Source of the DNA: Coprinopsis marcescibilis
Taxonomy: Eukaryota; Basidiomycota; Agaricomycetes; Agaricales; Psathyrellaceae
Direction of reading: 5' to 3'
Assembly (NCBI GenBank): GCA_004369085.1
Contig: ML210170.1
Coordinates: forward strand, 117,832 to 181,831
Length of the DNA stretch: 64,000 bases
How positions within the stretch are numbered: position 1 is the stretch's first letter; each line of letters begins with the position of its first letter. The notes under the pieces were generated by a model, which saw nothing but the letters and a program-made list of their open reading frames with translations, was not told the DNA's origin and did no database searches. A program made the translations under genes and the position numbers. Of the stretch, positions 17,393 to 62,565 are shown piece after piece.

Positions 17393-17599
17393 TTACAGGC
17401 AGGAGGTGCGGGGGTAGCACTGGGGGTCAGCAGCAGCAGCCGGTTCGCGTGCGACCACTGGCTCTGGGATAGGTGCAGCTCCTGCCGCAGATGCGAACAC
17501 TAGAAATCCCAGTTAGAAGCTGTACCTTTCAAAACATGGAAAGTTGAACTCACAAGCAGCAACGACAACAGTGGAGATGGCACGGATGGAGAAGTTCAT
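17393..17599 (-). CDS. small secreted two-cysteine peptide precursor, copy 1
   Basis: Two exons (17554-17599 and 17393-17499) joined across a 54-nt GT-AG intron give 50 residues. Residues 1-24 form a signal peptide (MNFSIRAIS then VVVAALFASAAGAA). Next comes a spacer rich in X-Pro and X-Ala dipeptides (PIPEPVVAREPAAAA). The C-terminal core is DPQCYPRTSCL, whose two Cys enclose five residues. This is not a CaaX box because only one residue follows the last Cys. A TATA-like TTAAATAG lies about 150 bp upstream on the minus strand. Three paralogues in this window share start, intron position, length and core. I know no named family; the role is unknown, and a secreted signal or defence peptide is an inference. 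Confidence 0.7.
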
Positions 17600-18742
17600 G
17601 GTGATTTGTAGGAAGTGTTGAACAACGAGTGTGTTTGGGATTTGTAGGAGGAGAGGGAGACTGTAGTAGAACAATGAGGTAGTGGAGTAGTAGATGAGGA
17701 GACTTGGAGCAAATCCGAGATGCTTTCCAACCTACCAAACCACCGCTCTATTTAACCTACCCTCCAGGTGTCCCATCAAACGGTTAAAGCACACTTCCAC
17801 TTACCAAATTGGTATGTTCCTTAGTCCTTCGGCCCTACGATGGTATTACCGTAAGCCTTGAGGTGCGTCTTATAATTATACGATAAGGTTGCTGCCACGA
17901 TGGGAGGCGATGCTTGGACCAGAACCTGGTGCTGTCCTAGAGGAGGTTGAACTGTGAAGAATATCATTGCTGGGTGAAATTCGCTTAAGAAGACCTCGCT
18001 GCACTGCCTGCTTTCTTTCCCATTCTCATGATTGTGTACGATAGAGGTCTGAGGTAGTGTGTGGTACGACGAAGGATGCCCCCAGCTTTCGGTATACGGC
18101 CAGATGGATCTATGCGATTGAATTATGGCGCAAAATTGGACATTTTGGTGAACCTGGGTGACACTTGGACGTTGATGATGACGAGATGGAGTAGGTGGAG
18201 TAGATGGGTCAATACATATGATAGGAAGGGGCGCCAATGTATATACAGTAAGTTACATAAACGCCAGAGAGTCCACCGTTGGCTTCCTCGCAGTATCTGG
18301 TTCGATAGAGCACTAGCGTCAGGAGTATGTAGAATAAACGAATAGTTGAACTAGAGAAATCTGTAGGTGCATGCGCACAGTCGCACCGCCTTGGCGTACC
18401 AAGTTGCATACACGATTCGAAGGGGCAGGTGGTAACTGTGACTACTATATTAAGAAGTCCTCTTGTTGTGACTTAGCACATCAGGACTCGACGCTCACGA
18501 CGGATTCCGATCCCATACGACGTTCGTGGCTCGCAAAGGGCCGGGCTGTTCTGATGAGAAGTATGTGACATGTAGGTAAGTATTATTAGAGCCAACATCG
18601 AATATATGTATCCGATCGTCCCTTTCCTTATCTATTCAGTGGGCTCAGGGACGGTGTGTGTACCGCAGGGGCGGCGGCGTCTTCACAAAGTCAGGGCCAA
18701 CATAGGCAGTCCCTATGATTTGCGCGAGATTCAACATACACC

Positions 18743-18985
18743 ATGGCATACTACGTAAATGACTACGCCGCCGTTGGGTCCAACCGGCGTATCACCCCCA
18801 AATGGAGCATCCTTTTATGCACCGACCAGAGGGTGCTCATGAAGGCTGGGATCTTACTGCACAGTGAACCTACCGATCTTGCGGAGTCAATTTGGATGAT
18901 GAACGAAAGGAATGACCTCCGCCGGAAGTCATCGATCAACCTTGATGACATTCGGCCCATAACGACTACACAAACGCTCTACTAA
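18743..18985 (+). CDS. 80-residue open frame in the duplicated block (doubtful)
   Basis: Begins MAYYVNDYAAVGSNRRITPK and ends TTTQTLY, with no domain that I recognise. The DNA is well conserved in block copies 2 (from 52097) and 4 (minus strand, about 60290-60538). Both of those copies carry indels that shift the frame in the middle, while the start and end remain recognisable. It may be a real small gene in copy 1 with two broken relatives, or a chance frame in conserved non-coding sequence. Confidence 0.25.
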   Translation: MAYYVNDYAAVGSNRRITPKWSILLCTDQRVLMKAGILLHSEPTDLAESIWMMNERNDLRRKSSINLDDIRPITTTQTLY

Positions 18986-19634
18986 ATTAGGACGGAGCTG
19001 AGGGCACCGTCCAAGGCCGCTGCCAGCCGCACCCCACAGTCCGTGCACACATACATCGGCGGATGTGGGCACGGTAAGTTTCACCACACTAAGCACTTCG
19101 TTGGTCTATGGAGATGGAGGAGTCATGCTGTGGCGCCAAGTCCACTCGTTGAACAAGGGCATGTTCGAATTGAGTACACGTTACCGCCACACGGAGAAGA
19201 TTCCAATAAGTCCTGAGGTCTCCGAGACTCCATTGTAGCCTTGAGGCTCCTTGAATGTAGCGCGTACCCGAAAACCGAGAGCACAACATCAACGGGCACC
19301 TGTTGTGATCTCTAGTGACTTTAGCTCACTAAATCCAACGGTAGAGCCTGAGCCAGACAACTTTCTTACCCATCCTGCTTACGGTCTTGTAGGGCAAGCG
19401 TCACGCTGTGGACTAAATTGGCGCCATCCAACCTCTTTTCGGCGTTGCGGCCAACATTTAACACATTCAGTTCGCCCACATCTGTTGACGTCTCTGGATG
19501 GCCGAGGGTCTTGGCCTCGGCGTAGATTTACTGTTTCCATTGCTTTAATACCGAACACCATGTGAGGAGCGGGATAAAAAAATTCAGGGTATATCAATTA
19601 TGTACGGAATTTTCCAAGTGACGGAGCTCTAAGC

Positions 19635-20300
19635 TTGATAGATGTCTGTGGTTTAATTAAATCTTTAAGTATCCACCGCTCTGTTTTCAGCCCTACACCG
19701 AGCTCCATAAGTAGCTGTTGATCCTTGCAGAGCCAGAGGAGCGTTCCCTGACAATGGCCTTCGCTGCCTCCGACGTCCCCAGTATTATTCTCAGTTTCCT
19801 CCTCAATAACCCCACTTTCTCTGGAGAAGGACGGGATCAAGATTTCGGCGCACACCGACGCATTGAACGTCGGATGGTAAATCGCCTCCACTGAGTACGG
19901 AAGCTCAACCGCGGGGAATTTAAACACATACCAGTCCCACCAATCATCATCATCGTCCACATAAAGCTCTCCACCTTGGCTAGCAGACGGCCACTTGCCA
20001 GATCCCAAAGCCCATTTCCCAAGAACGACAGACTTTCCAGCGGGCGCTTATCAGGGGACGGGGAAATGAACTTGTGTGCGATGAAGGCAACTTGGTCGTC
20101 GCACACGTCCCCAGCTGGCGTTTTGAGGCTGGGGAGAAGCTTAGAAATATCTGGTCAGAGTCGCTATCAGCGCTGTCAAACAAGGACACCAAGTCCTCCG
20201 TCAGTTCGAGAGTGCCATTTCGAACATGTCGCCAGACCTCGGAATTCACTCTCAGTGGTCGCTGTAATCGACTTGAAAAGGTAGGTGTTGATATAATAAT
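19635..20300 (-). pseudogene. family F1 F-box pseudogene with internal deletion
   Basis: The minus strand matches F1 from YLFKSITATTESEFRGLATCSKW through the SADSDSDQ region. It then jumps, by a deletion of about 340 bp relative to F1, directly to PAGDVCDDQVAFIAHKF. It continues to the C-terminus (WYVFKFPAVELPYSVEAIYHP ... LMELGVGLKTERW). The deletion and other indels break the frame, and the F-box itself is missing. The right boundary is close to the left end of the large transposable element. Confidence 0.75.
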
Positions 20301-22240: not shown

Positions 22241-22254
22241 TATATACCTGAATT

Positions 22255-22742: not shown

Positions 22743-24844
22743 CTACTTGGATTTCTTTGCTGGCACACGGACATCATTATTGAGGTTGGGTTGTTCCGTG
22801 TGAGAAGTACCTGAGGCTGTACTAGTGTTGGGCATTTCGATAGGGTTGGCTGGAGGAACACCACCTGGACTGCTGGGAGGAGGGGGTACTGGGAGTGAAA
22901 GAGACTGAGAATGCGGAGGAGATGGTGGAGGCGAATGCCCACGGGCAAACGACAGTCGCTGCTCTGCATGAAAGTTGGGGTCATTTTCGTCCGACATGTG
23001 ATTCATATCTTGAGGGTTACGATCGTCGATGTCAATTACAGCATTGGTGGTTGTTGTTGTTGTTGTTGTTGTTGTTGTTGCTGCTGTTGCCATTGTTGTT
23101 GTTGTTGTTGCCATTGCCATTGTTGTTGTTGCCATTGCCAGTGTTGTCACCGCCATTGTTGTTGTCGATGTAGTATTGATACGCTGCAGCAGCTGTGCAT
23201 TGTTTGGGACATCGTCGTCAGACCTGTAGGTCAGTTCAAGATCGGCCAAGGCCTCAGTCAGCCCCTCCTCGATGACGTCCCGGTTAGTGCCCAAGTTCTT
23301 GCCCTTTCCGCTCTTGAAAACAATGTCAGCAAGATAATTGATTGTGTCTTTCATGCCACTGGTGGGATCTGCAAGCTTCTCCATAATGATTTTCTTGACA
23401 AAGCTGAAAACTACACTGTAGTTAATGTTGGATTCAGTGCCAATTTCGGCAAACTGTGTGTCGGAAGAGTGGCAGAATACGGTCTGAAATTGGTCAGTAA
23501 ATCATCAAATTATCAAGGGCAGGATCAACTTACTGCAGTTACGGCGAGTGCGACAAAACCTGGGGTGAGTTCATTCAGCCCCCACATGGCGCCCGTACTG
23601 TTTGCAGCAATTTTACCCCCAACACCTGGATTAGCTGGGTTGGGCACAGATGTTGGTCCAAAGGCAATGCCACGACAGCTCTGTAAAAGTCTCAGCAACG
23701 GTGATTTTCAAAACAAATTAACAGCTTACCAGGGCAATCCACTCGCAATGGAAGATTTCAGTGACTCCCTGTTTCTTCAGCAGTGGGAACATGAATGCAT
23801 GGTACAATGACGGCTTGTTGGGGTTTGCTCTGGTGGGGAAAGTGTGGATAAAGTCCTGGAATTCAGGCTTTTCTGTACGCTGTGGGCCTTGATTGGCATC
23901 GTAAATCCCAGGGGTGGGGTTGAGGAAAGCAAAAGCCCTGTAGGCAACTTTTGCATGGAAGGAATTGAAGATGTTGCGGCAAGCTTCGTAGTACACTGGC
24001 ATGATCTAGAAAATATGTCAGAGGTGTAAAAAAAGGTGAGTAAGTAATCTGACCATGTCACGAAAAAGTGGGGCAGACAGCAAGAGCGTATGCATGGTTT
24101 CAGGAATGACCATGTAAAGCTCGTCCGTCTGGCCCATTTGTCGACGGTCTGGTGTGAGGTAACGGTCAGGATGGTTCCTGGCGTTGACTAGCAGCCCGTC
24201 AACTTCCTCAGGTGGCGGCCTGTGCTCCAAAAAAGCTGAGCCTCGAATCATCATGTCATGGCAAATGATGAGTCGACGGCAGAGCTTGGAGTAGTCGGAG
24301 GTGTTGCGACCGCCTTTGGGGTCCTCGTTGCTGTTACCTTTTCTAGCCTTCTTGCTGGAGCTCTTGACTGTGTACATGGCTGCTTGGGCCTTGTAATGGC
24401 GGAGTTCTACCTTGAGGGATGTGTTAGACAACTGGAGGCCTTTGACAAAGCCTTCCAGGCTTGTAATTGTGCTCTGGGCATTGGCGAAGATCTTGAAAAC
24501 ATGTTGGTCAGCATTATATGCATTACAAAAAATCTAACAACACTTACCACTTGGAACTGCTCCCTTGTGGTCATGTCGTTCGTTGGCGGCAGGGTTGTCA
24601 GAGGGATTTCAACATTTAGGGGGTCATTCAAACCCTCCTCTTCCACTACCTGTGGTCCATCTGAAGGCGCCTCAGAAGCAGAAGAGTCTGATTCATTGGC
24701 ATTATCTTGGCGATCGAAATCAAAAGTGCTTTCGTCAAAATCATCAAGGCCTGAGCCATCGACGGTGTTGGGCTGACGGCGCTGAGTAGCAGGGGCATGG
24801 GTAGGAGCAGGGGCAGGGTGTCCCCGTTGGCATGCACGAGGCAT
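22743..24844 (-). CDS. transposon companion protein resembling DUF6698 proteins
   Basis: About five exons run from the ATG at 24844 (MPRACQRGHPAPAP) to the stop at 22743. The first exon (24548-24844) is acidic and Ser-rich. The second (from 24491) begins IFANAQSTITSLEGFVKGLQ, with KSSSKKARKGNS and CRRLIICHDMMIRGSAFLEH. Later exons carry MPVYYEACRNIFNSFHAK, PLLKKQGVTEIFHCEWIA, the Asn/Gly-rich MWGLNELTPGFVALAVTA and FAEIGTESNINYSVVFSFVK. The order of the last segments resembles the DUF6698 proteins often found beside fungal mobile elements. That comparison is from memory. The C-terminal exon has a long Thr/Met/Ala repeat (about 23040-23170), then Pro/Ser-rich sequence. Function unknown. Confidence 0.55.
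23040..23170. repeat. (GTT)n-type microsatellite
   Basis: Imperfect GTT and GTTGCCATT repeats on the plus strand. On the minus strand they encode a Thr-rich tract of the companion protein. Confidence 0.85.
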
Positions 24845-25763
24845 GACAGCAAAGAGAAAGGTGAGACAAACAAAAACTTGCCATTTGACGTATTATATAC
24901 AGTCAACCAAAAACTAAAAAAAGCTCCTAAATAACATCTGTTTTGAGAATGATTAGTGATGTGTTGACTCATTAGGGCTAAAAATGGAACTTACAAGGTC
25001 CCTAATCGCACCAAATCTCCTTCACGCGAAGGTACAAGTTGGCATCCAGAATGTTGACGACAAACGCGTCGGTTTTCTTCACTCTCTCATTAGTAGGAGC
25101 CAAGAGACAGCCCCGGATGATCGCAAGAGCGGGGATGATGTGTGGCTGTGCTCCAGCTTTTCGGCGAACACGATAAAGTCCAAGGCATTTATCCTGTGCC
25201 CGTTCCACCTCTGACACTGGCTCATCATAGAGACTGACCAGCGCCAATGGAATATGTGTGTGCAGGCCTTTAGTCTCGAGTGTAAAAAGGCGTCCAAATG
25301 TTGGTTTTCCATCCACGTTGACAATAACTGTATCCCAACGTTCACCCTTTTTATGCCACTCATTAGTGCACCGGAGTAGGTCAGTGTCAGCCTCCCACAT
25401 AACCTTGGACTCATAGGTTACTCAGAGAAGCTGAAATTGCTGAGCCTAGAATATTAAATGAAAACTATGAAATTGGGCAAACTGTTAAATAAATTCAACG
25501 TACTACTGTCTCTGTCGAGTTTAGCACAATGTTGCCAGCCACAAGAGGGTTGTTCTTGATAAACTTGTTGAGAAGAGTACCCATGTAATGAGCACCAAGG
25601 TGTTGGTTGAGGTGGGCAATGAAGGCAGCAATATTGATGCGAACACCATTAGGCGAACCAAACGAAATCCTCTCGAAGTCATATTCAACAGAGATCTTGA
25701 CTCGGGTTTGCTTCCCTGAGTTCTCCCCAAAACCCTGGACTGTAAGGTTGCGAGTGAGATCTT

Positions 25764-25765
25764 TG

Positions 25766-25846
<81 letters not shown>

Positions 25847-25860
25847 TGTGGCTGTTGTGG
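25764..25860. repeat. (CTG/TTG)n repeat encoding poly-Gln
   Basis: A run of CTG and TTG triplets on the plus strand reads as about 30 consecutive Gln codons (CAG/CAA) in the transposase on the minus strand. Confidence 0.9.
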
Positions 25861-26424
25861 CTGCTCTGGAATATCAATATCTTCAATAAATTCACTGTTT
25901 CCATCATACCAATCAATCCTGCTTTGGATGTAGGATGCAACATAGTTCCAGTGGTCAAGCTTCAAAATCTGGAGAGGAGAATTAGAAAAATTTCAAATTA
26001 GCACTAAATATTTTACACTTGCCGTCTCATCAAAGTTCTTGAAGTTTGTCATATACTGGTAGAAGGCTTTGAGCAGTTGGTGCATCCCCTCATTTGGCTT
26101 AGTGTTGTAGTTCCGTGTGACACCTTTGAAAAGGATATCCCAAACCATGTGTGAGTGCATGTGTGCCTTCGGAAAGATCCATTTCTTCCCATCTGGCCCA
26201 GATACTCTGATATAAGCCTAGAATTCAAAATTAGACAGTAAATCATGCTAAAAAGTCAAACTCACCTCCAGTCGTGATTGAAATACCTTCAATGCCCTTT
26301 TTATCTGCTGAATTGTATCCTCTGTATGGTTCTCGAATGAAGCAAGAATGTCCAAAACTGAGAAAGCACGCATCAGCTGTAATAAAGCATCAAACTTTGC
26401 ACCTGGTGGTATGGACTTGGCAGA

Positions 26425-26530
26425 GCCTGCAGAGGTGGATCCATCATCAGATCCATTAGAGGTGGACCCATTGTCAGATCCATTAGAGGTGGACCCGTTG
26501 TCAGATCCAGTAGCAGTGGACCCATCTTCA
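26425..26530. repeat. 30-nt coding minisatellite
   Basis: Three to four tandem units in the transposase encode the repeated motif DNGSTSNGS on the minus strand. Confidence 0.8.
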
Positions 26531-27532
26531 GATTGGGTAGATGTGGACTCATCGCCAGACTCACTGCTTGAGTCCTCACCACTTGACTCATCATCAGATT
26601 GGCTATCAGAGTCAGAGCTTGCAGGTTGACTTGGGACCAAGTTGACTGCAATAAAAAGTGCAATCTGGTGTCATTGGAATAGGATTAGTATGGTACCTGA
26701 ATATCAAGCAAAGACAAACCTTCATCATTGCCTCATTCTTGTTTCCATCCTGATATTTGGTACTTAGAACCTTGTTGAAGTGGTACAAGCCACTATATTC
26801 TGGAAAATCATGAGCACTAACCAGAACCTAGCATGAGACACCTCTGCAAGTACATCAGATTAAACTACTTACCAGCGTGATAGCTCCAACATTTTTGCTT
26901 TGGGATAATTTTCCTTAATAAACGCTAAAAGCTCCGTCCATATATGCTTTGACCCTAGTCCATTGGCATAAGCATGAAGCCGATCCCACAACAATGCACA
27001 GAAGACATCTGTTCCACAGGGATCAAGGATAGCAAAAGCACTCTACAAATATATATCAATAAAATATATTCTAAAGCAGGCATAGGAAACGTACCGGGAC
27101 GGGACATTGCCCCTGGTTAGCCAAGTAAGCATCAGCTGCTGTTGCTGATAGTGTAAGTGCATGGGCTACCTGCTGCTCTGTTTCCCTCACAGTGCAGGGC
27201 TTGTGAGTATAGCAGAGGCATAACACCTTGTCCTTAGGTGCTAAACATACTGGGCACAACGCTTGGCCTTGAACACCACGGATTAGTGCTATGATACACC
27301 TGTTTTAACATATTAATAGTAGACTTATTATAAATAAATGCCACATACTGTTCCTCATAATCAGCCGAAACAATGAGAATACCTGGGAACATTCGATGGA
27401 ATAGATCGTCACCACATTTGACATGGAATCCAAAGCGTGAAGCATCCCGAATGGTCCCAAATATAATCTTCAAAGCTGCATGATAGACTTCTCTCTTGTG
27501 GTTAGCAAATGAGGTTGTGCCGCTATCTGCCT

Positions 27533-28176
27533 NNNNNNNNNNNNNNNNNNNNNNNNNNNNNNNNNNNNNNNNNNNNNNNNNNNNNNNNNNNNNNNNNNNN
27601 NNNNNNNNNNNNNNNNNNNNNNNNNNNNNNNNNNNNNNNNNNNNNNNNNNNNNNNNNNNNNNNNNNNNNNNNNNNNNNNNNNNNNNNNNNNNNNNNNNNN
27701 NNNNNNNNNNNNNNNNNNNNNNNNNNNNNNNNNNNNNNNNNNNNNNNNNNNNNNNNNNNNNNNNNNNNNNNNNNNNNNNNNNNNNNNNNNNNNNNNNNNN
27801 NNNNNNNNNNNNNNNNNNNNNNNNNNNNNNNNNNNNNNNNNNNNNNNNNNNNNNNNNNNNNNNNNNNNNNNNNNNNNNNNNNNNNNNNNNNNNNNNNNNN
27901 NNNNNNNNNNNNNNNNNNNNNNNNNNNNNNNNNNNNNNNNNNNNNNNNNNNNNNNNNNNNNNNNNNNNNNNNNNNNNNNNNNNNNNNNNNNNNNNNNNNN
28001 NNNNNNNNNNNNNNNNNNNNNNNNNNNNNNNNNNNNNNNNNNNNNNNNNNNNNNNNNNNNNNNNNNNNNNNNNNNNNNNNNNNNNNNNNNNNNNNNNNNN
28101 NNNNNNNNNNNNNNNNNNNNNNNNNNNNNNNNNNNNNNNNNNNNNNNNNNNNNNNNNNNNNNNNNNNNNNNNNNNN
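27533..28176. other. assembly gap (644 N)
   Basis: Run of N. Open frames reported across it are artefacts. Transposase coding sequence borders it on the left and LTR-like sequence on the right. Confidence 1.
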
Positions 28177-28443
28177 TGACTCATATCTAGTCGGACATTG
28201 CTATATGCTTACTGATACTCTTATCCACATGTGATACGACTGCACATGAACACTTTACATAGCCTCTCCTATACAGTATAAATACTGGTATCCCTACTCT
28301 GTATTCGATAGAGCTATCCAATTGTCTTTACTGCCTCTGCAGTCTATTCCTCTATCTCTATAGCTAGACGTTATCGTCTGCGCTCTCCGGTATCATCAGG
28401 TACCGTTACTGTTGCACCCATACACTTATTCTCATAGGCAACA
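28177..28443. repeat. end of a probable LTR retrotransposon repeat
   Basis: Non-coding sequence with a TATA-like box (AGTATAAATACTGG, about 28277), followed by a CT-rich leader (TCCTCTATCTCTATAGC). It stops at a terminal CAACA (about 28439-28443), after which transposon sequence resumes. This layout is typical of a copia-type LTR. The other end is hidden in the gap. Confidence 0.45.
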
Positions 28444-29996: not shown

Positions 29997-30512
29997 AGCT
30001 CAAGCTTCATGGGGATGGCTTGAAAGTTGCTGTGATTCTGAACAATTTTGTGCCGCGAGAATTTCGCTTCAAAAAGATTCACGGTACTCGCTGCTTTCTT
30101 CAACATCATATCGCTAATATAAGGGAGAAGTAGTAGTACCTTGGATACCTAGTGTTGGTATCTGCCTGCCTAATTATAACAAGACCTGGGACGATCAGGT
30201 TATACCATGCAAGTTGGTCGATCACTGGCTTAACTGTGGTCTGCTATATATGTGCCTCAACCAATGCCCCCTAAGAATATAACTAACTAGTAGTAACACG
30301 GAACACTGTGTACTGTGTGCCACAAGGTGCCATATTGGATGCGACTCGGGGGGCCACTGGCAGTGGCGCAGCGTTTGACCCTAGAAAATTTCCAGAAATC
30401 CAGAGAAGGTCTTGGCAAACAAATGCAAACTGCACATAACGCCTCTGTCAGTCGACCTGGTATCCTCTTCTCACAAACTATCGTCTTGACATTCCTTCGG
30501 TGATAGATATAT
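29997..30512. other. intergenic before the F-box pair
   Basis: From the right end of the transposon to the first F-box gene. The last 150 bp (LENFQKSREGLGKQMQ region in one frame) is similar to the sequence before the second F-box gene. The tandem duplication therefore included the 5' flank. Confidence 0.5.
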
Positions 30513-32129: not shown

Positions 32130-32484
32130 ACTTTGCCAATATTGACATTTCAAGATCTTTTCTTTTCTTTCTCCCAGTAACAGTGTGATGCAGGTGAGAA
32201 CTAAGGATTAGGGAAGCAACTTAAAAAAGTTGCTTCACGCAGACTAGTACAAGTTGATGTCCATACAACTTTAATCGTTAAAGTAGGCAGAGAGGATCAA
32301 CGGCTCGGTGACCCACGTTCAAGTTTGCCATTAGTTTTTAGAGAAGGTGTTGACAAGCAAATGCAAATCTTTGCTGAACGCCTCCGAGTCTGCCACTTCG
32401 AACTTTGGAATCCTCTTGACTACGGAACTATCAAGATTCAACAAAGCTCGTATTGACGAAGGACAATCCTTCGTAGGTACATAT
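32130..32484. other. spacer between the tandem F-box genes
   Basis: Holds the 3' end of the first copy and the 5' flank of the second. Sequence from about 32335 repeats the region before 30513 with changes. An in-frame GTG-started extension from 32347 is open but lies in this duplicated flank and is probably not translated. Confidence 0.5.
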
Positions 32485-48546: not shown

Positions 48547-49734
48547 TCATTTATAATAAACGATGAGTTTGTCTCCTACAGATTGCAAGTGGTGCTTGGA
48601 ATCAGGAGCCCATGGTATCATACCCCATGTGACAGACACCTCAATGGATCTCAAGCACCTCCTTGAAGAACTTGAAGAACTAGGACCGTTCCCTACTGCT
48701 CCAAGGATCTCCAGAGCTGCCTTAGCCGCACATTCGCTTAGATTATTTGTGCTGAAGGAGACATACACGGCCTCGAGTTGAAGTTGGCTCAGGTCAAGTT
48801 TCTCGAAGCCCCGATGATCGAAGGCGCCAGAGATGAACATCATGCTAAACATGGTCAAGGTGGGTGCTAGGACGTCCAGAGCAGCTTGAAGACGCGGGAA
48901 GCCTCTCGAACTGCTTGATGAATAGGCGAAAGTGCGGATATTTCTGTGGGCGAGAAACGATGGGGAGGTAAGGTAGTGGAAAGTAGCCCCTGGTGTCCCG
49001 TCAGAGAGTTCCAGTTCCACCGAGCTTTTTTTCTCGACGTTGTCTTCATGTGCCTCGGCGTCGGCAGAGTCCCTTGAAAGCAACCCTGAGATGGCTACTC
49101 CAATCATGGATAGTTTGACTTCTTTGGTAGGCAAGGCCTTGATAAGATTGGCAGGGAGAGCATTTATGCCACTAATCGTTTTCTTTTGAATAGTAGGATT
49201 GAGGAGCACTGTCTTCAGAGCTTCCTGTAGCTCGGGCTTTAAATGTGTCCAGGCAATCTCCTCAGCCCACCAACTGGAATCGGGCCGGTATTCCAGTTCG
49301 AATTGGATCAGCCCTTTGGCAGAGGTGAAAATCAACAGGAGAATCTTCGTCTCCGTCGTGTATGGGGTAGTCTGGCGCAGATGTTCTATGTACTGCAGCT
49401 GCAAATCGGTATAACCAAATAGCCCCCTCTCAAGGCGCATAGTGAGAGAGTACCGGTATAACACCTCATCCTTGCCCCGGCGTAGAGCTAGGTGTTTGAT
49501 GAGGCGAGCAAGCTCGGGCTTTTCAGCAAGGGTGAATGCTAGCTTATGCGCAAGTATATCCCCCTTCACGTTGGAGAGGTCGATCTTGATGCTTTTATAC
49601 AGGAAAGTGTTGGCGAGTTTGTTGAACTGGGACATCAGGCTCAGAGAGTGAATAGCAGCGTCATCGGGATCCAGATTCTGTACAATCAGCGTGTAAAGCG
49701 CGTTGGGAAGCTGGAAAGATTGAGTGGCGCCCAT
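48547..49734 (-). CDS. F-box-like protein, family F2 (intact copy)
   Basis: Intronless, 395 residues from the ATG at 49734 (MGATQSFQLPNALYTLIVQN). The upstream in-frame extension to 49866 runs through the TATA box and is not used. The N-terminal 60 residues look like a degenerate F-box (LPNALYTLIVQNL ... LSLMSQFNKLANTFLYKSIKIDL). LARLIKHLALRRGKDE, HLRQTTPYTTETKILLLIF and a Leu-rich body follow. Later come SPSFLAHRNIRTFAYSSSS and a Ser-rich tail before SIEVSVTWGMIPW. I recognise the family as common in Agaricomycetes but know no function. Fragments at 6500-7024 and 14036-14516 are degenerate paralogues. Confidence 0.75.
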   Translation of the reverse strand: MGATQSFQLPNALYTLIVQNLDPDDAAIHSLSLMSQFNKLANTFLYKSIKIDLSNVKGDILAHKLAFTLAEKPELARLIKHLALRRGKDEVLYRYSLTMRLERGLFGYTDLQLQYIEHLRQTTPYTTETKILLLIFTSAKGLIQFELEYRPDSSWWAEEIAWTHLKPELQEALKTVLLNPTIQKKTISGINALPANLIKALPTKEVKLSMIGVAISGLLSRDSADAEAHEDNVEKKSSVELELSDGTPGATFHYLTSPSFLAHRNIRTFAYSSSSSRGFPRLQAALDVLAPTLTMFSMMFISGAFDHRGFEKLDLSQLQLEAVYVSFSTNNLSECAAKAALEILGAVGNGPSSSSSSRRCLRSIEVSVTWGMIPWAPDSKHHLQSVGDKLIVYYK

Positions 49735-49814
49735 TGTGGTGAAGCGGAGTGGTGATCTAGCGTGGTGGGCAATTGGAGGGAAATTTCTGAAGCTCGATCT
49801 CAGAAAGCGACTGG

Positions 49815-49827
49815 TATTTATACCAGA
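49815..49827 (-). promoter_or_regulatory. TATA box of the F2 gene
   Basis: GGTATAAATACC on the minus strand, about 85 bp before the ATG. The same box and flanks recur at 6681, 14590 and 62898, next to F2 fragments or alone. Confidence 0.65.
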
Positions 49828-49884
49828 GCTGGTTCCTTTGTTGATGGATACAAAGCAAACATGCAATCAAATACTTTGGCCTGA

Positions 49885-50035
49885 GGCTGATGCTGAGCGC
49901 TTACTCCCAACGCCACGTGTTCTGGGCACCGGAAACAGCACCGGCGCCCATGGGGATAAATGGCACCATCGTTTCCAGTCGCGGCACACCATTAACACTG
50001 CTTTCGGACATACCATACACCTTGGAACCGACAGC
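49885..50035 (+). repeat. direct repeat flanking block copy 2, left
   Basis: F2 upstream region (CCTGAGGCTGATGCTGAGCG ... GGCGCCCATGGGGATAAATG). It recurs in the same orientation at 52672-52850, so copy 2 lies between two direct repeats of about 150-180 bp. Confidence 0.6.
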
Positions 50036-50079: not shown

Positions 50080-52650
50080 GAAGCTTTCGGAACGTGTTGG
50101 GTCCTTGAAGATTTCGATTTCTTATGCTAGCAGGATTACTCAGTTTCCCAGCTCAAATATGTAAGCCCTCGACGCTGTTCTTGGCATCGTACAAACGGCT
50201 TATGATATTTCACCTCCTTTCTAGCGTCAAGCTGATATGGCTCATGCGTAACTTTCAGCCAGGCTCCAAGTTCGACGTTATATCACAATCTGGGTCACTC
50301 GATTTAAAGCCCTGACTTTCCACATTGAGACTGTGACCGATGCTCGGACTAGCGGAGAAAGCGAGGCATCGATAGCGATAAGTGGCGAGATAAATAGCTA
50401 ACAATACAGCAGATAATACAAAGTGCCTAATCTAAAACCAAAAAGGCGAACAATGGGGGACGAAGGGCAGCGGCTGCTTGGGGTAAGGATGGTTGATACA
50501 AAGCATGCGAGAGAAAGAGGAATAACGATAGAGGATGCTATGTAGTCTACAGAGCAGTCAGAAGGAAGGTCGAAGGAGAGTGTGAGAGGGCCTGTGAATG
50601 GCGCTGATGTCAGATGAGATTGAATGGTTGAACTTGGAGAGTTGCGTTTGTGATGGAGCCCGACATGATTGACGATGAGGAGTTCATCCACAGCTGCGAC
50701 CGGCCAGTGGGTATGGGCGAAATGATGATTCCACAGCCATTTACATGCAGGAGAAGCGGGGGTAGCACTGGGGGTCAGCAGCAGCAGCCGGTTCGCGTGC
50801 GACCACTGGCTCTGGGATAGGTGCAGCTACTGCCACAGATGCGAACACTAGAAATACCAGTTAGAAGCTGTATCTTTCGAATCATCGAAAGGTTGAACTC
50901 ACAAGCAGCAACGACAACGGTGGAGATGGCACGGATGGAGAAGTTCATGGTGATTTTTAGGAAGTGTTGAACAACGAGTGTGTTTGGGATTGGTAGGATA
51001 AGAGGGAGACTGTGGTAGAACAGTGAGGTATTGGAGTAGTGGATGAGGGGACTTGGAGCGAATCCGAGATACTTTCCAACATACCAAACCACCGCTCTAT
51101 TTAACCTACCCTCCAGGTGTCCCATCAAACGGTTAACGCACACTTCCATCTTACCAAATTGGTATGTTCCTTAGTCCTTCGGCCCTACGATGGTATTACC
51201 GTAAGCCTTGAAGTGCTTCTTCCAATGGGCTTTTTATACGATAAGATTGCCGCCGATGGGAGGCGATTCTTGAACCATAACCTGGTGCTGTCCTAGAGAA
51301 GGTTGAACTGTGAAGAATATCCGAGTCATTGCTGAGCGAAATTCGCTCGAGAAGACCTCTCACTGCTTGCTTTCTTTCGCTTTCTCAAGACTGTGTACGA
51401 GAGAGGTGTTAGGTAGTGTAGTACGACCAAGGGTGTCCCCCATCTTTCGGTATGCGGCCAAATAGATCTGTGCCAAGGAACTATCGCGCAAAATTGGACA
51501 TTTTGGTGAACCTGGGTGACAACTTGGATGTTGGTATAATGACGAGATCGAGTGAGAAGTCAATACAAATGATACGAAGGGGCAGAACTGTACAGTAAGT
51601 TACACAAAGCCGGAGAGTCCACCGATGGCTTCCTTGCAGCATCTGGTCCGATAGAACACTAGCGTCAAGAGTACGCAGAATAAACGAATAGTTGAACTAA
51701 GGAAATCTGTAGGTACATGCGCTCATTCGCACTGCCTTGGCGTACACGTTGATTACACGATTTGAAGGGGCAGGTGGTAACTCTGACTACTATATTAAGA
51801 AGTCCTCTTGTTGTGACTTAGCACACCTGGACTCGACGCTCACGACGGATTCCTTTCCCAGACCACGCTGACGGTTCGCGAAGGGCCGGGCTGCTCTGAT
51901 GAGAGCTGTAGATGACTGAGTAATGATGTAAGTATTAGAGTCGACATGAAAGTTATGTATTCGATCGTCCATTTTCTTATCTTGGGCTCAGGGGGTGTGT
52001 GTACAGGGATAATGATAATGGGCGGCGGCGTCTTCACAAAGTCAGGGCCAACATAGGCAGTCCCTATGATTTGCGCGAGATCCAACATACACCATGGCAT
52101 ACTACGTAAATGACTACGCCGCCGTTGGGTCTAACAGACGTATCACCCCAAAATGGAGCGTCCTTTTATGTACCGACCAGAGAGTAATCATGAAGACTGG
52201 GATGCACTTCACACTGTACTTACCGATCTTGCGGAGTCAATTTGGATGATGAACCAAAGGAATGACCTCCGCCGGAAGTCATCGATCAACCTTGATGACA
52301 TTCGGCCCATAACGACTACACAAACGCTCTACTAAATTGGGACGGAGCTGAAGGCACCGTCCAGGACCACTGCCAGCCGCGCCCCACAGTCCGTGCAAAC
52401 ATACATCGGCGGATGTGGGCACAGTAGGTTTCAACCACTAAGCACTTTGTTTGGTCTATGGAAATAGAGGAGTCATGCTGTGGCGCCAAGTCCACTCGTT
52501 GAACAAGGGCATGTTCGAATTGAGTACACGTTCCCGCCACACGGAGAAGATTTCAACAAGTCCTGAGGTCTACGAGACACCCATTTTAGCCTTGAGGCTC
52601 CTTGAATTTAGCGTATCCGAAGACCGAGAGTACAACATCAACGGGTGCCT
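50080..52650. repeat. duplicated block, copy 2
   Basis: Same orientation and order as copy 1: LRR-like fragment, peptide gene (-), its promoter, non-coding part and the MAYYVNDY frame (shifted here). Ends at the ACATCAACGGG...CCTGTTGT segment next to the right direct repeat. Confidence 0.8.
50741..50948 (-). CDS. small secreted two-cysteine peptide precursor, copy 2
   Basis: Exons 50903-50948 and 50741-50847, intron 55 nt, 50 residues. The signal peptide differs from copy 1 at two positions (Ala20 to Val, Gly22 to Val). The spacer PIPEPVVAREPAAAA is identical. The core is DPQCYPRFSCM, with Phe in place of Thr and Met as last residue. Promoter and leader are closely similar to copy 1. It lies divergent from nothing and about 1 kb upstream of the F2 gene on the same strand. 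Confidence 0.7.
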
Positions 52651-52671
52651 GTTGTAATCTCTCAAAGCAAA

Positions 52672-52850
52672 CCTGGCCTGAGGCTGCTGCTGAGCGCCTA
52701 GTGATGGCAAAAGCCAAGCCGCATGCACTAGAAACAGCACGGGCGCCCATGGGAACAAGTAGCACCATCGTCTCCAGTCGTGGCCCTCCATTAACACTTC
52801 TTTTGGACATACCATTGGTTACCATAACGAGGTCAGTCAAGGGAATAATC
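52672..52850 (+). repeat. direct repeat flanking block copy 2, right
   Basis: F2 upstream region again (CCTGAGGCTGCTGCTGAGCG ... GGCGCCCATGGGAACAAGTA), same orientation as at 49885-50035. It ends near the GTTACCATAACGAGGTCAGT segment, also found at 16400 and, inverted, at 62690. Confidence 0.6.
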
Positions 52851-53451
52851 CGCAATCCGATTATTACCAATTCTCAAACCATCGTAATCGTAGGTGCGAA
52901 TTCAACGGTATGCTCATACATGGTGTCTAAAAATGCTGTAATGGTGTCAAAATACAACTGGCGCAGCTCCTTTACTTCTAAATCCTCGTCAGTCCGCCTC
53001 GTCTGACTCGGATGTGCGCCGTTCGGAAGCTTGGTGAAAGACGGAAATTGAGAGCACAGCTTTTTTGAGAAGGAGAAGGGAGGGAGGTCCAAGAAGATAC
53101 CTACATCAGCCCATTTCTTCTGCTGGTTTATCACTAGAACAACTATACAGTGAGGGCTGTATGAGGCGAGTGACTGGTAGTCTGCCACGGAGACACCTTT
53201 CGCACTGGCTCTTGAGTTCGGGGATCGTGATTCGTCGGCCCATCGCCGATCTCCTAATACTACGCAATCTAATCTAATCTGACATGTGAGTCGCGGAATA
53301 TTTTATTATTCTCCTCCATATACGCCCCTGGGCCATGAAATGAATGACATAGTGACGACTTCAATGCCACATGCTAGATTAATCGCTTTGCCTGCGAGAC
53401 TCACTGGCTGGCCATGTTGTAGAACACTTTCCAAATAAACGTAAATGATGC
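52851..53451. other. intergenic, possible gene scrap
   Basis: A minus-strand stretch (about 52900-53010) reads LEVKELRQLYFDTITAFLDT and could be a remnant of a coding exon. It has no start, splice partner or known domain, so I do not call a gene. No other feature seen. Confidence 0.3.
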
Positions 53452-55113
53452 ATGTTGATCCCCCTGAGTTTTAATCAATCTGAACTTCTTCCTGACCTCC
53501 ACACCAAATCTTGCCACGCGCTGACCATGGATGATTTCTTGAGACCTACGGTTCCTTCAATCGACCAAGATTTGACACCATACCTATTCAATAACGATCA
53601 TGTTCCCGACGTCTTGGAAAGATTGGCCTTGCAACGACTCAGGGAGGCGGACGATACAATGCGCGCTATCGATGGCGAAACAGGCGGTCTCCCAGGGACC
53701 TCTCCAGAGGTAACAGAGCTGGGAAGGCAGGTCATCAAAGTCAAAAACGGATATCATCGCATCCTTGCTCCCGTTCGCAAGCTCCCATTTGAACTCATTG
53801 CGGAGATTTTGAAAGCTAGTTTTCGAACAGGTGACATGGACGGCCCTGAGAGGCTTGCGTTGATGAAGCTACGGGCTATCTGCAGGATGTGGAGGCAAGT
53901 CATCTTGATGACGCCGTGGTTTTGGCGAGCCTTGGTTCTGGACTTTGGACCCAACTTCGACCGTCCGCTACCCACGTCAGCAACGACCATCTCCGACTGG
54001 TTTCAACGTGCTGGAAAGGACGCGCCACTGAAACTTATCGTAGATCACAGCACTTCAGCAATGAGCATGCGCACTCTGCTGTTCCACGACCTCGCACTGC
54101 TTGTCGCAGAGAACCGACGGTGGATCACACTAAAGCTTCCACTGAAACCATTCGACAGTCGATACATACAAACTCTTCAAAAGGTTGTATCCAACCCTTC
54201 GCTTCCGTGGCAGTATCTCACCACCCTCCGTATCCCAATCTTCCTGGGTGGCTTGGCTCAAAGATGGCCATTCGACGATCCTAAAGCGCCGAGCTTCGAG
54301 ACCTGTCTGCCAAGGCTTCAGACCCTCGAACTGGATCTGCGCGTCGCATCCATATTCCAGACCATCCCAACTCCGCAGCTTTTCCACCCAACTACCACCA
54401 AGCTCGTTTTGAGTCTGACGTGTGACCTGGGTGGCTTTTTAGCTGAAGTTTTAAAACAACTCCCAGAACTGACCTCCCTCGACCTCATCATCAACCCCGA
54501 TAAGCTCACGAAGCCATTGCTGGTGCCACACGGGCTTGAAATACACCTGAAAAGGCTTCGACATTTGCGACTATGGGGTACGCAGGCCACGTTCGATGCA
54601 GCTCATGTGTTACGCCTCCCAGCGCTCCAGCTCCTGTCCATATCGTCCCCGACCCCGCCCAAAAAGGACTTTTGGCAAGAGCTTAGTAGTGTATGGAACG
54701 TGATGCTGCTCGCCCACCTCTCACAGTCGTTGCAGGCGATCGATATCTCTGCACTCTTGCTGGAGCGGAACTCGTTAACGGACTTGCTCTGGAGCACGTT
54801 GTCCGACATGAAAATCATCCGCATCGACTCGTTCACCTCGACGCTGACATCGCGTCTTTACGATCAGCACCCCATACTTCAAGTGGGCTTACCGTCCAAC
54901 ATAACGACTGTATACACGAAAAGGCTTACTCAGGCCGACATCGATTCCTTCAAAAAAATCAAGCATTTAAGGGCTAGGTCGGGCCCCATGACGGTTATCT
55001 ATGAGAGTGTTAGTGACGAAGCCCGCGATTTTCTGGCGGGGACGGGAGGGAACAGTTCCGGGTTGGTCATGAGACCTGGTCGTTGGGACTTTGAGGAAGT
55101 AGTGTTCTGCTAG
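53452..55113 (+). CDS. F-box protein, family F3-related
   Basis: Intronless, 553 residues from the first ATG. A second ATG at 53527 (MDDFLRPTVPSIDQD) has better context and may be the true start. LTPYLFNNDHVPDVLERLAL matches the LSNNDPPPDDL segment of the tandem pair at 30.5-34.1 kb. Next come a helical region and the F-box (VRKLPFELIAEILKASF ... LMKLRAICRMWRQVILMTPWFWRAL), then SDWFQRAGKDAPLKLIVD. Leucine-rich repeats follow (LPRLQTLELDL, LPELTSLDLIIN, LKRLRHLRLWG, LPALQLLSIS). The C-terminus lacks the YHPCFDP motif of the tandem pair, so it is a distant relative. Likely SCF adaptor, target unknown. Confidence 0.8.
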   Translation: MLIPLSFNQSELLPDLHTKSCHALTMDDFLRPTVPSIDQDLTPYLFNNDHVPDVLERLALQRLREADDTMRAIDGETGGLPGTSPEVTELGRQVIKVKNGYHRILAPVRKLPFELIAEILKASFRTGDMDGPERLALMKLRAICRMWRQVILMTPWFWRALVLDFGPNFDRPLPTSATTISDWFQRAGKDAPLKLIVDHSTSAMSMRTLLFHDLALLVAENRRWITLKLPLKPFDSRYIQTLQKVVSNPSLPWQYLTTLRIPIFLGGLAQRWPFDDPKAPSFETCLPRLQTLELDLRVASIFQTIPTPQLFHPTTTKLVLSLTCDLGGFLAEVLKQLPELTSLDLIINPDKLTKPLLVPHGLEIHLKRLRHLRLWGTQATFDAAHVLRLPALQLLSISSPTPPKKDFWQELSSVWNVMLLAHLSQSLQAIDISALLLERNSLTDLLWSTLSDMKIIRIDSFTSTLTSRLYDQHPILQVGLPSNITTVYTKRLTQADIDSFKKIKHLRARSGPMTVIYESVSDEARDFLAGTGGNSSGLVMRPGRWDFEEVVFC

Positions 55114-57685: not shown

Positions 57686-58244
57686 AGGCTCGGAGTAGTG
57701 TAGCAAGTTTGGCGGTGTGAGGAGAGGTATGGAAGAACGATGGTTGGTGGGAGCGGCGTGGTGATGTGTTGGCACATCCTTGCTATTGAGGCCGAGATGT
57801 TTCTTCAAACCATCATCTCACCGTTACCGTCGGCGAAGACATACCGTGCTCACCACAAGCGCACCGCGCTCAGGCTTTCTGTTTCTGAGCTTCAATTAAT
57901 TAAACCAAACGGTGACATGTTGAGCACAAATCCGTCGTGTCAATTTACTTAGATAGTTCCCAAGTCTGTGGAGGTATGAAATGTTTTTTGTTATAACTGT
58001 CTAAATGTACATGGCTGACGACTATCCAAGAAAATGTGTGTCTAAAGTGTCCAATAATAATGCAAGATGGAGTGAAAATGAAGCAAAAGCTCCAGGAACT
58101 TTTGGGCGAATGGTGGCCGAATGGTGCGTGGAGCTCCATCGAAAGTAGCGTCTCCAAAGAGACCGCTATAAGTACTAGTAATACAAATCAACCACAAGTG
58201 GCTGGGGATGAAGATCGAAGGACAGGCGAGGGAGTACCGGAGAA
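57686..58244. other. intergenic, GDPase promoter side
   Basis: 5' flank of the GDPase. A short ATGATGGTTTGA upstream open frame lies on the minus strand at about 57815. Nothing else recognised. Confidence 0.35.
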
Positions 58245-59095
58245 AGCTAGGCATACAGAGCGAGGATGGTAGGTGGCAAGATAGATAGCTAACGATACAG
58301 CAGATGAGACGATGTGCCCAAAATAAACCCAAAAAGCGAATAATGAGTGACGAGGGGAGTTGCTTGGGGTAGCGATTGTTGATCCAAAGCGAGGGAGAGA
58401 TAGCGATACAGATTGACGTAGTCTGCAGAGCAGGCAGGTCGAATGTCAAGAGGAGGGTCGAAGGAGAGTGTGAGAGGGTCGATGACTGGCTCTGATGAGA
58501 AAATGGTTGCAGGGTCGGGTTTAGGGGAAACGTGGGATGGAGCCGCCCGTCCTATTGGCGCATAAGGTGTTCATCCACCACTATGGCCTGCGGCTGGGGG
58601 CGAAACGATGGCTCAGCAATTTACATGCATGAGAATCGGGGGTAGCACTGGGGGTCAGCTGCAGCAGCCGGTTCGCGTGCGACCACTGGCTCTGGGATAG
58701 GTGCAGCTACTGCCACAGATGCAAACACTAGAAATGCCAGTTAGAAGCTATATCTTTCAGAGCATGTAATAGTTTGAACTCACAAGCAGCAACGACAACG
58801 GTGGAGATGGCACGGATGGAGAAGTTCATTGTGATTTGTGGGAAGTGTTGAACAACGAGTGTGTTTGGGTTTTGTAGGAGAAGAGGGAGACTGTGGTAGA
58901 ACAGTGAAGTATTGGAGTAGTGGATGAGGAGACTTGGAGATAATCCGAGATGCTTTCCAACCTACCAAACCACCGCTCTATTTAACCGCCCTCCAAGCGT
59001 CCATCAACCGTACACTTCCATCTTACCATATTAGTATGTTCCTTAGTCCTTCAGCCCCCAAGGTAGTATTACCACAAGGTGCTTCCTCTAACCGG
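58245..59095. repeat. duplicated block, copy 3 (truncated)
   Basis: Same orientation as copies 1 and 2. It begins in the GATAGATAGCTAACGATACA region and ends just after the CTTAGTCCTTCAGCCCC segment upstream of the peptide gene. It lacks the LRR-like fragment and the distal non-coding part. The most divergent copy in its non-coding portion. Confidence 0.75.
58621..58829 (-). CDS. small secreted two-cysteine peptide precursor, copy 3
   Basis: Exons 58784-58829 and 58621-58727, intron 56 nt, 50 residues. The protein is identical to copy 2 although several codons differ at third positions (for example in the Ala run, Arg46 and Ser48). The core is DPQCYPRFSCM. The flanking block copy is the most diverged of the four, so conservation of the protein points to selection on the coding sequence. 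Confidence 0.7.
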
Positions 59096-59774
59096 ACGTT
59101 TCGACGAAGAGACTGCTGCGATGATGGGAGGGACAAGGACAAGGCGAAGGACGGATGCGGAAGGCACCCAACGTCATCGTGAGAGGTTGTTGGTGCGTGG
59201 CGCCAACAAATCTATTAATTATTATGTACTTCGTGTAGGTGATGGGCCATCTGATGACTGGCCAGGCGTAATCCTTGGAATTCGGGGGTACTTGCGCACT
59301 GGAGGAGGCAAGGGATAAAGACTCTTCCTAAAGGGGTCGTGGAAACAACCTGGCAACCACTGAACATGAACATTGAGGGCGAAAGTCCTGTGGTACCGGC
59401 GACCGTTCGGCGTCAACTTTGTAAGATTTTGCTCTTCCTTGGCTTCTCTTTGCTTCCGTTTTGCCAGTCGATCGGTCTGCGACTCACTAATTTGCACCTG
59501 GAAAACATGCGATTATTTCTTGGGAGCGGTGGAGGTATTCTTATCTCCCCTCAGGCCGCGCAGCACGCACGGTTGGAGGATTTGGTGGAGCCGGGCTAGC
59601 CGAAGAAGCTCAACTCTGTGCTTCACTGGACAAAGGGTTCGATCATATGGGTTATTCGCGGGTAATGCTATCATATCCTATCGTCCAATTCAAGCTTTCA
59701 GGTGCCATCTATGTCGCAATCCTCTAAGGGCATATTGAATTGATCGATCAAGACTTGATGCCGGCTGGAGCGTA
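59096..59774. other. spacer between block copies 3 and 4
   Basis: No recognised gene. Short frames such as 59079-59318 and 59373-59738 show no domain. It separates two oppositely oriented block copies. Confidence 0.4.
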
Positions 59775-62565
59775 ACTTGTCAAACAGTTGCAACAGTGAT
59801 GTCAACAGATGTGTTCAATGTTGGCCGCAACGCCGAAAAAAGGTTGGATGGCGCTAATTTAGTCCACAGCGTGACACTTGCCTTCCAAGGCAGTAAGCTG
59901 GCCGGGTAAGAAAGTTGCCTCGCTCGGACTCTACCCTTAGCTTTAGTGAACCAAAGTCACCAAAGATTACAACAGGCGCCCGTTGATGTTGTGCTCTCAT
60001 CTTCGGGTACACTATGTACATTCAAGGAGCCACAAGGCAACAATGGGTGTCTCGGAGACCTCAGGACTTATTGGAATCTTCTCCGTGTGGCGGTAACGCG
60101 TACTCAATTCGAACATGCCCTTGTTCAACCAGTGGACTTGGCGCCACAGCATGACTCCTCCAACTCCATAGACCAAATAAAGTGCTTAGAGTGGTGAAAC
60201 CTACCGTGCCCACATCCGCCGATGTATGTTTGCACGGACTGTGGGGCGCGGCTGGCAGTGGTCCTGGACGGTGCCCTCAGCTCAGTCCTTATTTAGCAGA
60301 GCGTTTGTGTAGTCGTTATGGGCCGAATGTCATCAAGGTTGATGGTTGACTTCCGGCGGAGGTCATTCCTTTCGCTCATTACCAAACTTGACTCCCGCAA
60401 GATCGGTAAGTTCATTGAGTAGTAAGATCCCAGCCTTCGTGATCACTCTCTGGTCGGTGCATAAAAGGTCGCTCCGTTTTGGGGTGATACGTCGGTTGGG
60501 CCCAACGGCGGCGTAGTCATTTACGTAGTATGCCATGGTGTATGTTGCATCTCGCGCAAATCATAGGGACTTCCTATGTTGGCCCTGACTTTGTGAAGAC
60601 GCCGCCGCCCCTGCGGTACACACACCGTTCCTGAACCCACTGGAATAGACAAGGAAAGGGACGATCGGATACATATATTCTATGTCGCCTCCAATAATAC
60701 TTACTTACATATGTACTTAATGAATCACATACTTCTCATCAGAACCGCCCGGCCCTTTGCGAGCCACGAACGTCGTATGGGATCGGAATCCGTCGTGAGC
60801 GTCGAGCTCTGATGCGCTAAGTCACAACAAGAGGACTTCTTAATATAGTAGTCAGAGTTACCACCCGCCCCTTCGAATCGTGTATGCAACGTGTACGCCA
60901 AGGCAGTGCGACTGTGCGCATGCACCTACAGATTTCTTTAGTTCAACTATTCGTTTATTCTGCGTACTCCTGAAGCTAGTGCTCTATCGAACCAGATACT
61001 GCGAGGAAGCCAACAGTGGGCTCTCTGGCGTTTATGTAACTTACTGTATATACATTCGCGCCCCTTCCTATCATTTGTATTGACTGATCTACTCCATCTA
61101 CTCCATCTCGTCATTATCAACATCCAAGTGTCACCCAGGTTCACCAAAATGTCCAATTTGCACCATAATTCAATCGCACAGATCCATCTGGGCGTATACC
61201 GAAAGATGGGGGCATCCTTAGTCGTACTACACACTACCTCAGACCTCTATCGTACACAATCTTGAAAATGGGAAAGACGGCAGGCAGTGCAGCGAGGTCT
61301 TCTCGAGCGAATTTCACCCAGCAGTGATATTCTTCACAGTTCAACCTTCTCCAGGACAGCACCGAGTCCTGGTCCAAGGGTCGCCTCCCATCGTGGCAGC
61401 AATCTTATCGTATAATTAGAAGTAGCACCTCAAGCCTTACGGTAATACCATCGTAGGGCCGAAGGACTAAGGAACATACCAATTTGGTAAGATGGAAGTG
61501 TGTGTTAACCGTTTGATGGGACACCTGGAGCGCAACGTTAAATAGAGCGTTGGTTTGGTAGGTTGGAAAGTATCTCGGATTCGCTCCAAGTCCCCTCATC
61601 CACTACTCCAATACCTCACTGTTCTACCACAGTCTCCCTCTTATCCTACCAATCCCAAACACACTCGTTGTTCAACACTTCCTAAAAATCACCATGAACT
61701 TCTCCATCCGTGCCATCTCCACCGTTGTCGTTGCTGCTTGTGAGTTCAACCTTTCGATGATTTGAAAGATACAGCTTCTAACTGGTATTTCTAGTGTTCG
61801 CATCTGTGGCAGTAGCTGCACCTATCCCAGAGCCAGTGGTCGCACGCGAACCGGCTGCTGCTGCTGACCCCCAGTGCTACCCCCGCACCTCCTGCATTTA
61901 AAAGGCCGACCCGTCATCATTTCGCCCATACCCACTGGCCGGCCGTAGTGATGAGTAACCTCTTCATCGCCAATCATGACGGGCTCCGTCACAAACGCAG
62001 CTCTTCAAGTTCAACCATTCAACCTCATCTGACATCAAAGCCATTCACCGGCCCTCTCACACTCTCCTTCGACCTTCTTCGACCTGCGACATGCCTTGCC
62101 TGCTCTGCAAACTAGATGGCATCCTCTATCGTTATTTCTCTTTCTCTCGCATGCTTCGTATCAACCACTGTTACCCCAAGCAACCGCCGCCCTTCGTCAC
62201 CCTTTGTTCGCCTTTTTTGGTTTTAGAGTAGGCACTTTGTATTATCTGCTGTATTATTAGCTATTTATCTCACCACTTATCACTATCGATATCGATGTTT
62301 CGCTTTCTCCGCTAGTCCCTCCAGCCGCCTCAGACTTAAGCTGATCGGTAATAGTCTTAATGTGGAAAGTCAGCTTTAAAATCGAGTGACCCAGGTTGTG
62401 ATGTAGCGTCGAACTTGTAGCCTGAATGAAGGTTACGGATGAGCTATTTCAGCGACGCCAGAAAGCGAGGTGAAATATCCTAAGTCATCTGTACGATGCA
62501 AAGAACAGCGTCGAGGCTTATTTGAGCTGGGAGAGCGACGCTGAAGCTTTCGGAACCGATGTTTG
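59775..62565. repeat. duplicated block, copy 4 (inverted)
   Basis: Full-length copy in reverse orientation relative to copies 1-3, about 2.8 kb. It includes the GGCCGCAACGCCGAAAAAAGG end shared only with copy 1, the broken MAYYVNDY frame (about 60290-60538, minus strand), the peptide gene (+) and the LRR-like fragment at its right edge. Copies 1 and 4 form a distant inverted repeat pair. Confidence 0.8.
61694..61901 (+). CDS. small secreted two-cysteine peptide precursor, copy 4
   Basis: Exons 61694-61739 and 61795-61901, intron 55 nt, 50 residues, the only plus-strand copy. The signal peptide is as in copies 2 and 3, with Val at 20 and 22. The core is DPQCYPRTSCI, combining Thr47 of copy 1 with a new last residue. 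A TTAAATAG box lies about 150 bp upstream. In all four copies the last residue varies only among Leu, Met and Ile, and position 47 between Thr and Phe. Confidence 0.7.

Follow-up and report, generated by a model that had tools for sequence, protein, structure and literature searches.

We have studied a family of four tiny spliced genes in a 64,000-nucleotide stretch of the genome of Coprinopsis marcescibilis, a mushroom of the family Psathyrellaceae related to the ink caps (contig ML210170.1, positions 117,832 to 181,831; referred to below as the window). The gene probably makes a short ring-shaped secreted peptide, from a precursor that would be cut much like that of a yeast mating pheromone, and from the predicted proteins the four genes are best filed as encoding a precursor that has a single core and what looks like a STE13 signature. 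In its complete form our proposal is that all four copies work and that the gene, restricted to this lineage, encodes a secreted-peptide precursor, which would follow the logic of alpha-factor and of the KEX2-processed repeat proteins (KEPs) with a single core and no repeats, and be matured by Kex2- and STE13-type steps. We consider the chances of this being correct in full to be about even.

The genes had been proposed in a sequence-only reading of the window, and all four are confirmed, with 50 codons, exons of 46 and 107 nt and introns of 54-56 nt. Copies 1 (17393..17599), 2 (50741..50948) and 3 (58621..58829) lie on the minus strand, and copy 4 (61694..61901) on the plus strand. Their introns, of 54, 55, 56 and 55 nt respectively, start with GTGAGT, end with TTTCTAG and carry CTAAC ahead of the acceptor, and splicing leaves 153 nt encoding 50 residues in each case. 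The protein of copy 1 reads ...REPAAAADPQCYPRTSCL, that of copy 2 ...REPAAAADPQCYPRFSCM and that of copy 4 ...REPAAAADPQCYPRTSCI, and the consensus of the four copies is MNFSIRAISTVVVAALFAS[V/A]A[V/G]AAPIPEPVVAREPAAAADPQCYPR[T/F]SC[L/M/I]. The proteins of copies 2 and 3 are the same, the two genes being separated by 4 silent sites only, as the earlier reading had said. Compared with these two, copy 4 has T in place of F at residue 47 and I in place of M at residue 50, and copies 1 and 4 differ at residues 20, 22 and 50; residues 23-46 are invariant across the family. By inspection, the N-terminus comprises MNFSIR, a hydrophobic segment at residues 7-22 and then AVA or AGA directly before AP, a secretion-signal-like start where the earlier reading had placed a signal peptide. 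The only basic residues in the protein are the arginines R6, R33 and R46.

Following the predicted signal peptide, the precursor can be written as AP-IP-EP-VV-AR33, then EP-AA-AA-DP, and finally Q42-C43-YPR[T/F]S-C49-[L/M/I]50. In 4/4 copies the basic site R33 is directly followed by X-A/X-P dipeptides, EP-AA-AA-DP, and then by Q. Residues 1-23 would form the signal peptide, and a Kex2-type protease could cleave after the lone R33. A dipeptidyl aminopeptidase of the STE13 type would then strip EP, AA, AA and DP, the newly exposed N-terminal Q42 would cyclise to pyroglutamate, and a disulfide between C43 and C49 would close the ring. The predicted product is pQ-CYPR[T/F]SC[L/M/I], of nine residues, in which local duplication and gene conversion would vary residue 47 inside the ring and residue 50 just after it. 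Its putative role is most likely in outward signalling or in interaction, as a peptide of the mycelium or of the fruiting body. For the STE13 type the genome contains one locus, matching DPPIV_N, and for the Kex2 type three places matching P_proprotein. Work on KEPs in Coprinopsis cinerea and Pichia reports removal of X-A/X-P dipeptides, pyroglutamate at an N-terminal Q, cleavage at single arginines and three kex2 genes (PMC9769878). Precursors with a STE13 signature are reported from Basidiomycota (PMC6339444), and KEPs are described from many members of that group (PMC7329392).

The coding sequence has been held open while the DNA beyond it diverged. The exons contain no indels in any pair of copies, whereas the 3′ flank (436 alignment columns after the stop) has 4-12 indel events per pair, in keeping with the earlier observation of indels in the flanks and unbroken frames. 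Differences in the coding sequence and 3′ flank number 6/153 and 38/305 for copies 1 and 2, 10/153 and 85/282 for copies 1 and 3, 5/153 and 42/305 for copies 1 and 4, 4/153 and 85/294 for copies 2 and 3, 3/153 and 44/317 for copies 2 and 4, and 7/153 and 94/306 for copies 3 and 4. Coding divergence is thus 3.2-11.1 times below that of the 3′ flank in 6/6 pairs (Fisher p from 0.0037 to 3e-13). Between copies 2 and 3 there are 4 silent changes and 0 replacements (Fisher p = 0.0045), although the intron differs at 16% and the 3′ flank at 29% of sites; compared with the intron (9/55 differ), the lack of replacements gives p = 3e-5. For copy 1 the replacement-to-intron comparison gives p = 0.007 with copy 3, 0.18 with copy 2 and 0.16 with copy 4. 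The comparison of copy 3 with the other copies shows purifying selection. Neutral evolution was also simulated from copy 2, in 20,000 runs under each of four rate settings. All four frames remained intact in a fraction of 0.0001 to 0.05 of runs depending on the rates, and in 0.0001-0.0006 when flank indel rates were included. None of the runs in any setting combined intact frames with as few as 4 variable residues.

The copies lie within duplicated blocks, at 16704..19466 (copy 1, minus strand), 50146..52662 (copy 2, minus strand) and 59809..62616 (copy 4, plus strand), with a short block at 58228..59079 (minus strand) around copy 3. The blocks of copies 1, 2 and 4 are 2.5-2.8 kb in length and 86-90% identical, that of copy 1 having 90% identity to the copy 4 block and 86.5% to the copy 2 block; the shared part around copy 3 measures about 0.85 kb and has 80-81% identity to the other blocks. 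Copy 4 is a gene-conversion mosaic, resembling copy 2 as far as the middle of exon 2 and copy 1 from codon 47. In alignment columns 2032-2275 (5′ leader to mid exon 2), 19/20 of the sites separating copies 1, 2 and 4 place copies 2 and 4 together, whereas between codon 47 and a point shortly after the stop 8/11 such sites place copies 1 and 4 together. The longest run contains 15 such sites, a length equalled in 0/20,000 shuffles of the 334 sites. When copy 3 serves as outgroup, the shared derived sites number 5 for copies 2 and 4 in the first part and 4 for copies 1 and 4 in the second, against 0 for other pairs within the two stretches. The T/F difference in the core therefore comes with the edge of a conversion tract.

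A TATA-like motif, GGTTAAATAGAGCG, is placed 145-158 bp before the ATG of each gene (distance by subtraction), at 17744..17757, 51093..51106 and 58974..58987 on the minus strand for copies 1, 2 and 3, and with one mismatch at 61536..61549 on the plus strand for copy 4. A short repeat occurs near block ends, on both sides of copy 2 (49771-50017 and 52662-52815) and at 16285-16487 and 62628-62951; it may have mediated the duplications. The idea of a transposon-borne gene was rejected; the block DNA is found only on the window's own contig among the matches listed, and the shared upstream DNA shows no coding signal. In the 1.7 kb of shared upstream DNA, 7/7 shared open stretches (at least 40 codons, gap-free segments) have more replacement than silent differences.

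A number of observations weigh against our proposal, some bearing on the genes as working copies, others on the maturation and one on the family as a whole. In 6/6 pairs the 155-base 5′ leader matches the coding sequence in conservation (2-12 differing sites, none significantly more), and it has 0 indels in any pair, so that promoter or leader constraint, or conversion, also plays a part. Furthermore, the changes among copies 1, 2 and 4 comprise 1 silent and 6 replacement, compared with 4 silent and 0 replacement among those found in copy 3 only (Fisher p = 0.015). On these small counts, this means old purifying selection together with change of a relaxed or diversifying kind in the young copies. 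The claim of the sequence-only reading that the family is under selection consequently stands for copy 3 relative to the rest and does not extend uniformly to the others. Copies 2 and 3 differ by no replacement, whereas the youngest copies (1, 2 and 4), taken alone, would give the dN/dS near 1 that the reading had named as speaking against selection.

Both the leader conservation and the replacements among copies 1, 2 and 4 speak for the copies being recent duplicate DNA without a working product, the frames surviving through their youth or through homogenisation by conversion. The conversion tract shared by copies 2 and 4 extends from the 5′ leader into the middle of exon 2, and at intron rates with indels ignored the four frames survive in 5% of the simulations. 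Against this, copy 3 has accumulated no replacement relative to copy 2 despite the divergence of intron and 3′ flank, four-frame survival is very rare once flank indel rates are applied, and a co-duplicated neighbouring gene has decayed beside copy 4. That gene is intact next to copy 2 (48550..49734, minus strand, 395 codons). Its relative after copy 4, outside the window at contig positions 182627-183940, has 80.7% DNA identity over 1,163 bases and contains 7 in-frame stops, and thus DNA of similar age decayed there while the peptide frame stayed intact. The distant fragment after copy 1 (14096-14446) is only 66% identical to the neighbouring gene, making it a poor control for decay, and only the neighbour of copy 4 was used. 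We regard non-functional duplicates as improbable. The frame holding the intact neighbour has no Pfam match, and an F-box-like label for it was dropped on that account. Further members of the 395-codon family are found on the window's contig (C25) and on contigs C90 and C113.

As for the maturation, 11/18 residues of the propeptide are A or P. The chance of four consecutive X-A/X-P pairs in such a composition is about 0.14, which makes the run of dipeptides weak evidence by itself. R33 is monobasic, and KR, RR and KK are absent from the protein; R46, which follows a proline, could likewise be cut, inside the ring. Glu_cyclase_2 was not found in the genome, other cyclase families not having been sought. 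It is possible, although we think it the less likely course, that only the signal peptide is removed and that the 27-residue APIPEPVVAREPAAAADPQCYPR[T/F]SC[L/M/I] is the product, for example as a matrix-bound or effector-like small secreted protein. The lack of a dibasic site fits this, a proline- and alanine-rich stretch can serve as a plain linker, and small secreted proteins encoded by orphan genes are described as common in fungi (PMC7105643). Against it, the segment R33-Q42 is identical in all the copies and splits exactly into X-P/X-A dipeptides up to Q, and C. cinerea precursors expressed in Pichia are reported to give products of single-arginine cleavage (PMC9769878).

Within the assembly the family appears confined to this contig. 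The protein of copy 4 is identical to the hypothetical protein FA15DRAFT_702466 of C. marcescibilis in NCBI and UniRef (the database entry clusters 3 sequences at 90% identity), and gene finders have thus caught at least one copy; the earlier view that the genes are too short for most gene finders is not fully upheld. A protein search of the 36.3 Mb assembly gave 7 matches among those listed, all on C25 and within the four genes, and a search with the block DNA gave at least 9, again all on C25 among the matches listed; no fifth copy was found by either search among those matches. The codon pattern AA-[D/E/A]-[P/A]-QC occurs at 8 places in the genome, the 4 known genes and 4 others without the core or a nearby stop. 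No homologue was found elsewhere in the protein-database searches, which is the last of the adverse points. With E values up to 10, only the protein itself was returned by a single-sequence search (7 candidates), by a profile of the three distinct proteins (9 candidates) and by an artificial 84-residue query with extra cores and dibasic sites, designed for repeat-type relatives (84 candidates). There was no Pfam match above the curated cut-off, the best being DUF7155 (E 0.068; 13.8 bits, with the cut-off at 27). The strings CYPRTSC, CYPRFSC and DPQCYPR were not found in the papers searched, and no description of the peptide was found among those on KEX2 and pheromones, disulfide peptides, STE13 and pyroglutamate, small secreted proteins or C. 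marcescibilis. The statement that no described family with this core is known is in agreement with these results. A non-coding RNA family was considered and discarded, the window having no Rfam match at gathering score.

Taken overall, the sequence-only interpretation is partly supported, as regards spliced genes, a secretion-signal-like N-terminus and a small family whose frames stayed open during divergence of the 3′ flank; it is not fully upheld as regards uniform selection and gene finders. It had missed the four X-P/X-A dipeptides between R33 and Q42, the gene conversion and the decayed co-duplicated neighbour of copy 4.

Could the genes belong to the mating system? Multiple copies with variant cores recall pheromone gene sets, and some ascomycete alpha-type pheromones are reported to be short two-cysteine cores preceded by STE13 dipeptides (PMC6339444). 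According to the same source, however, the mating pheromones of basidiomycetes are of the a-type only, and the C-terminus S-C-[L/M/I], with one residue beyond the last cysteine, forms no CaaX box. Moreover, the 18 STE3 matches in the genome are on contigs C24, C40 and C210, with 0 on C25, and no linkage is seen at the level of contigs. STE2 (PF02116) had no match in the genome, in a search made without a working control. We consider a mating pheromone or other product of the B mating-type system highly unlikely. Much the same small likelihood attaches to a ribosomally synthesised and post-translationally modified peptide (RiPP) of the ustiloxin or dikaritin kind, in which the tyrosine or the cysteines would be cross-linked by UstYa-type enzymes. 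The short core has Y and C after an R, and the genome contains 8 UstYa (DUF3328) matches, but these are located on C59, C72 and C280 with 0 on the 243,759-base C25, and repeats and dibasic sites are lacking. Small secreted two-cysteine peptides can be antimicrobial. By hand count, however, the side chains give the nine-mer a net charge of about +1 and the 27-residue form one of about -1, which is not strongly cationic, and synthetic KEP peptides of C. cinerea, which are other peptides, are reported as inactive on the bacteria tried (PMC9769878). An antimicrobial function seems to us very improbable indeed.

Returning to the single-core precursor, a precursor of this type would escape repeat-based screens. 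If the nine-residue ring is made it could easily be synthesised and tested, and alpha-factor-like maturation in Basidiomycota would also serve precursors without repeats; if it is not made, the family becomes one more orphan small secreted protein. STE13-signature peptides of mushrooms have been detected without known function, and six kep knockouts of C. cinerea are reported to show no visible phenotype (PMC9769878). A more speculative proposal, on which we would place rather little weight, is that the genes represent a new class of mushroom peptides, acting as hormones or pheromone-like signals and built as a single core with a disulfide ring. These would be matured by Kex2 and STE13 though no alpha-factor mating role is known, would vary ring (47) and tail (50) by duplication and gene conversion within a local cluster, and would have been overlooked elsewhere because they comprise 50 codons in two exons.

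Elsewhere in the window there is an imperfect inverted repeat at 7035-7607 (about 573 bases, 90% identity to its own reverse complement). Long open frames at 30507-32129, 32335-34101 and 53449-55113 have weak F-box-like matches that stay under the cut-off of Pfam; of these, the first two are tandem relatives with 74% DNA identity. The region 24001-28208 is A+T-richer (GC 0.40 at 24-28 kb) and contains a poly-Q frame as well as a run of 644 N bases.

How do the predicted precursors compare with known systems? They are like fungal orphan small secreted proteins as described (PMC7105643) in being short and signal-peptide-like without a known domain, and unlike them in their very small size, apparent propeptide and local four-copy family. 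With two-cysteine ascomycete alpha-type pheromone precursors (PMC6339444) they share a short C-terminal two-cysteine core placed after STE13-type dipeptides. They differ from the examples RFCHLPGQGCSK and QSWGGCGGRGTPCW given there, the latter from the basidiomycete yeast Trichosporon oleaginosus, in having a CX5C spacing, no W or G-Q-P, a single core and STE3 loci located elsewhere. The C. cinerea GH128 protein 365456, from the same genus, is reported to release a single non-repeated pyroglutamate peptide, pyro-QSEPKPTN, through KEX2 from a secreted precursor (PMC9769878), as is predicted here; that precursor is a long enzyme with flanking KEX2 sites and its peptide is linear. The four genes are not KEPs by definition, as repeats and dibasic sites are absent: there is one core per 50-residue protein, a single R in place of dibasic sites, two cysteines and no sequence match found. 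The likeness is to the STE13-signature KEPs of Agaricomycetes, such as C. cinerea KEP 490115 and Pleurotus KEP 1091723 (PMC9769878), with which the predicted precursors share a secretion-signal-like start, a basic residue, X-A/X-P dipeptides and a short core that may begin with Q and carry pyroglutamate.

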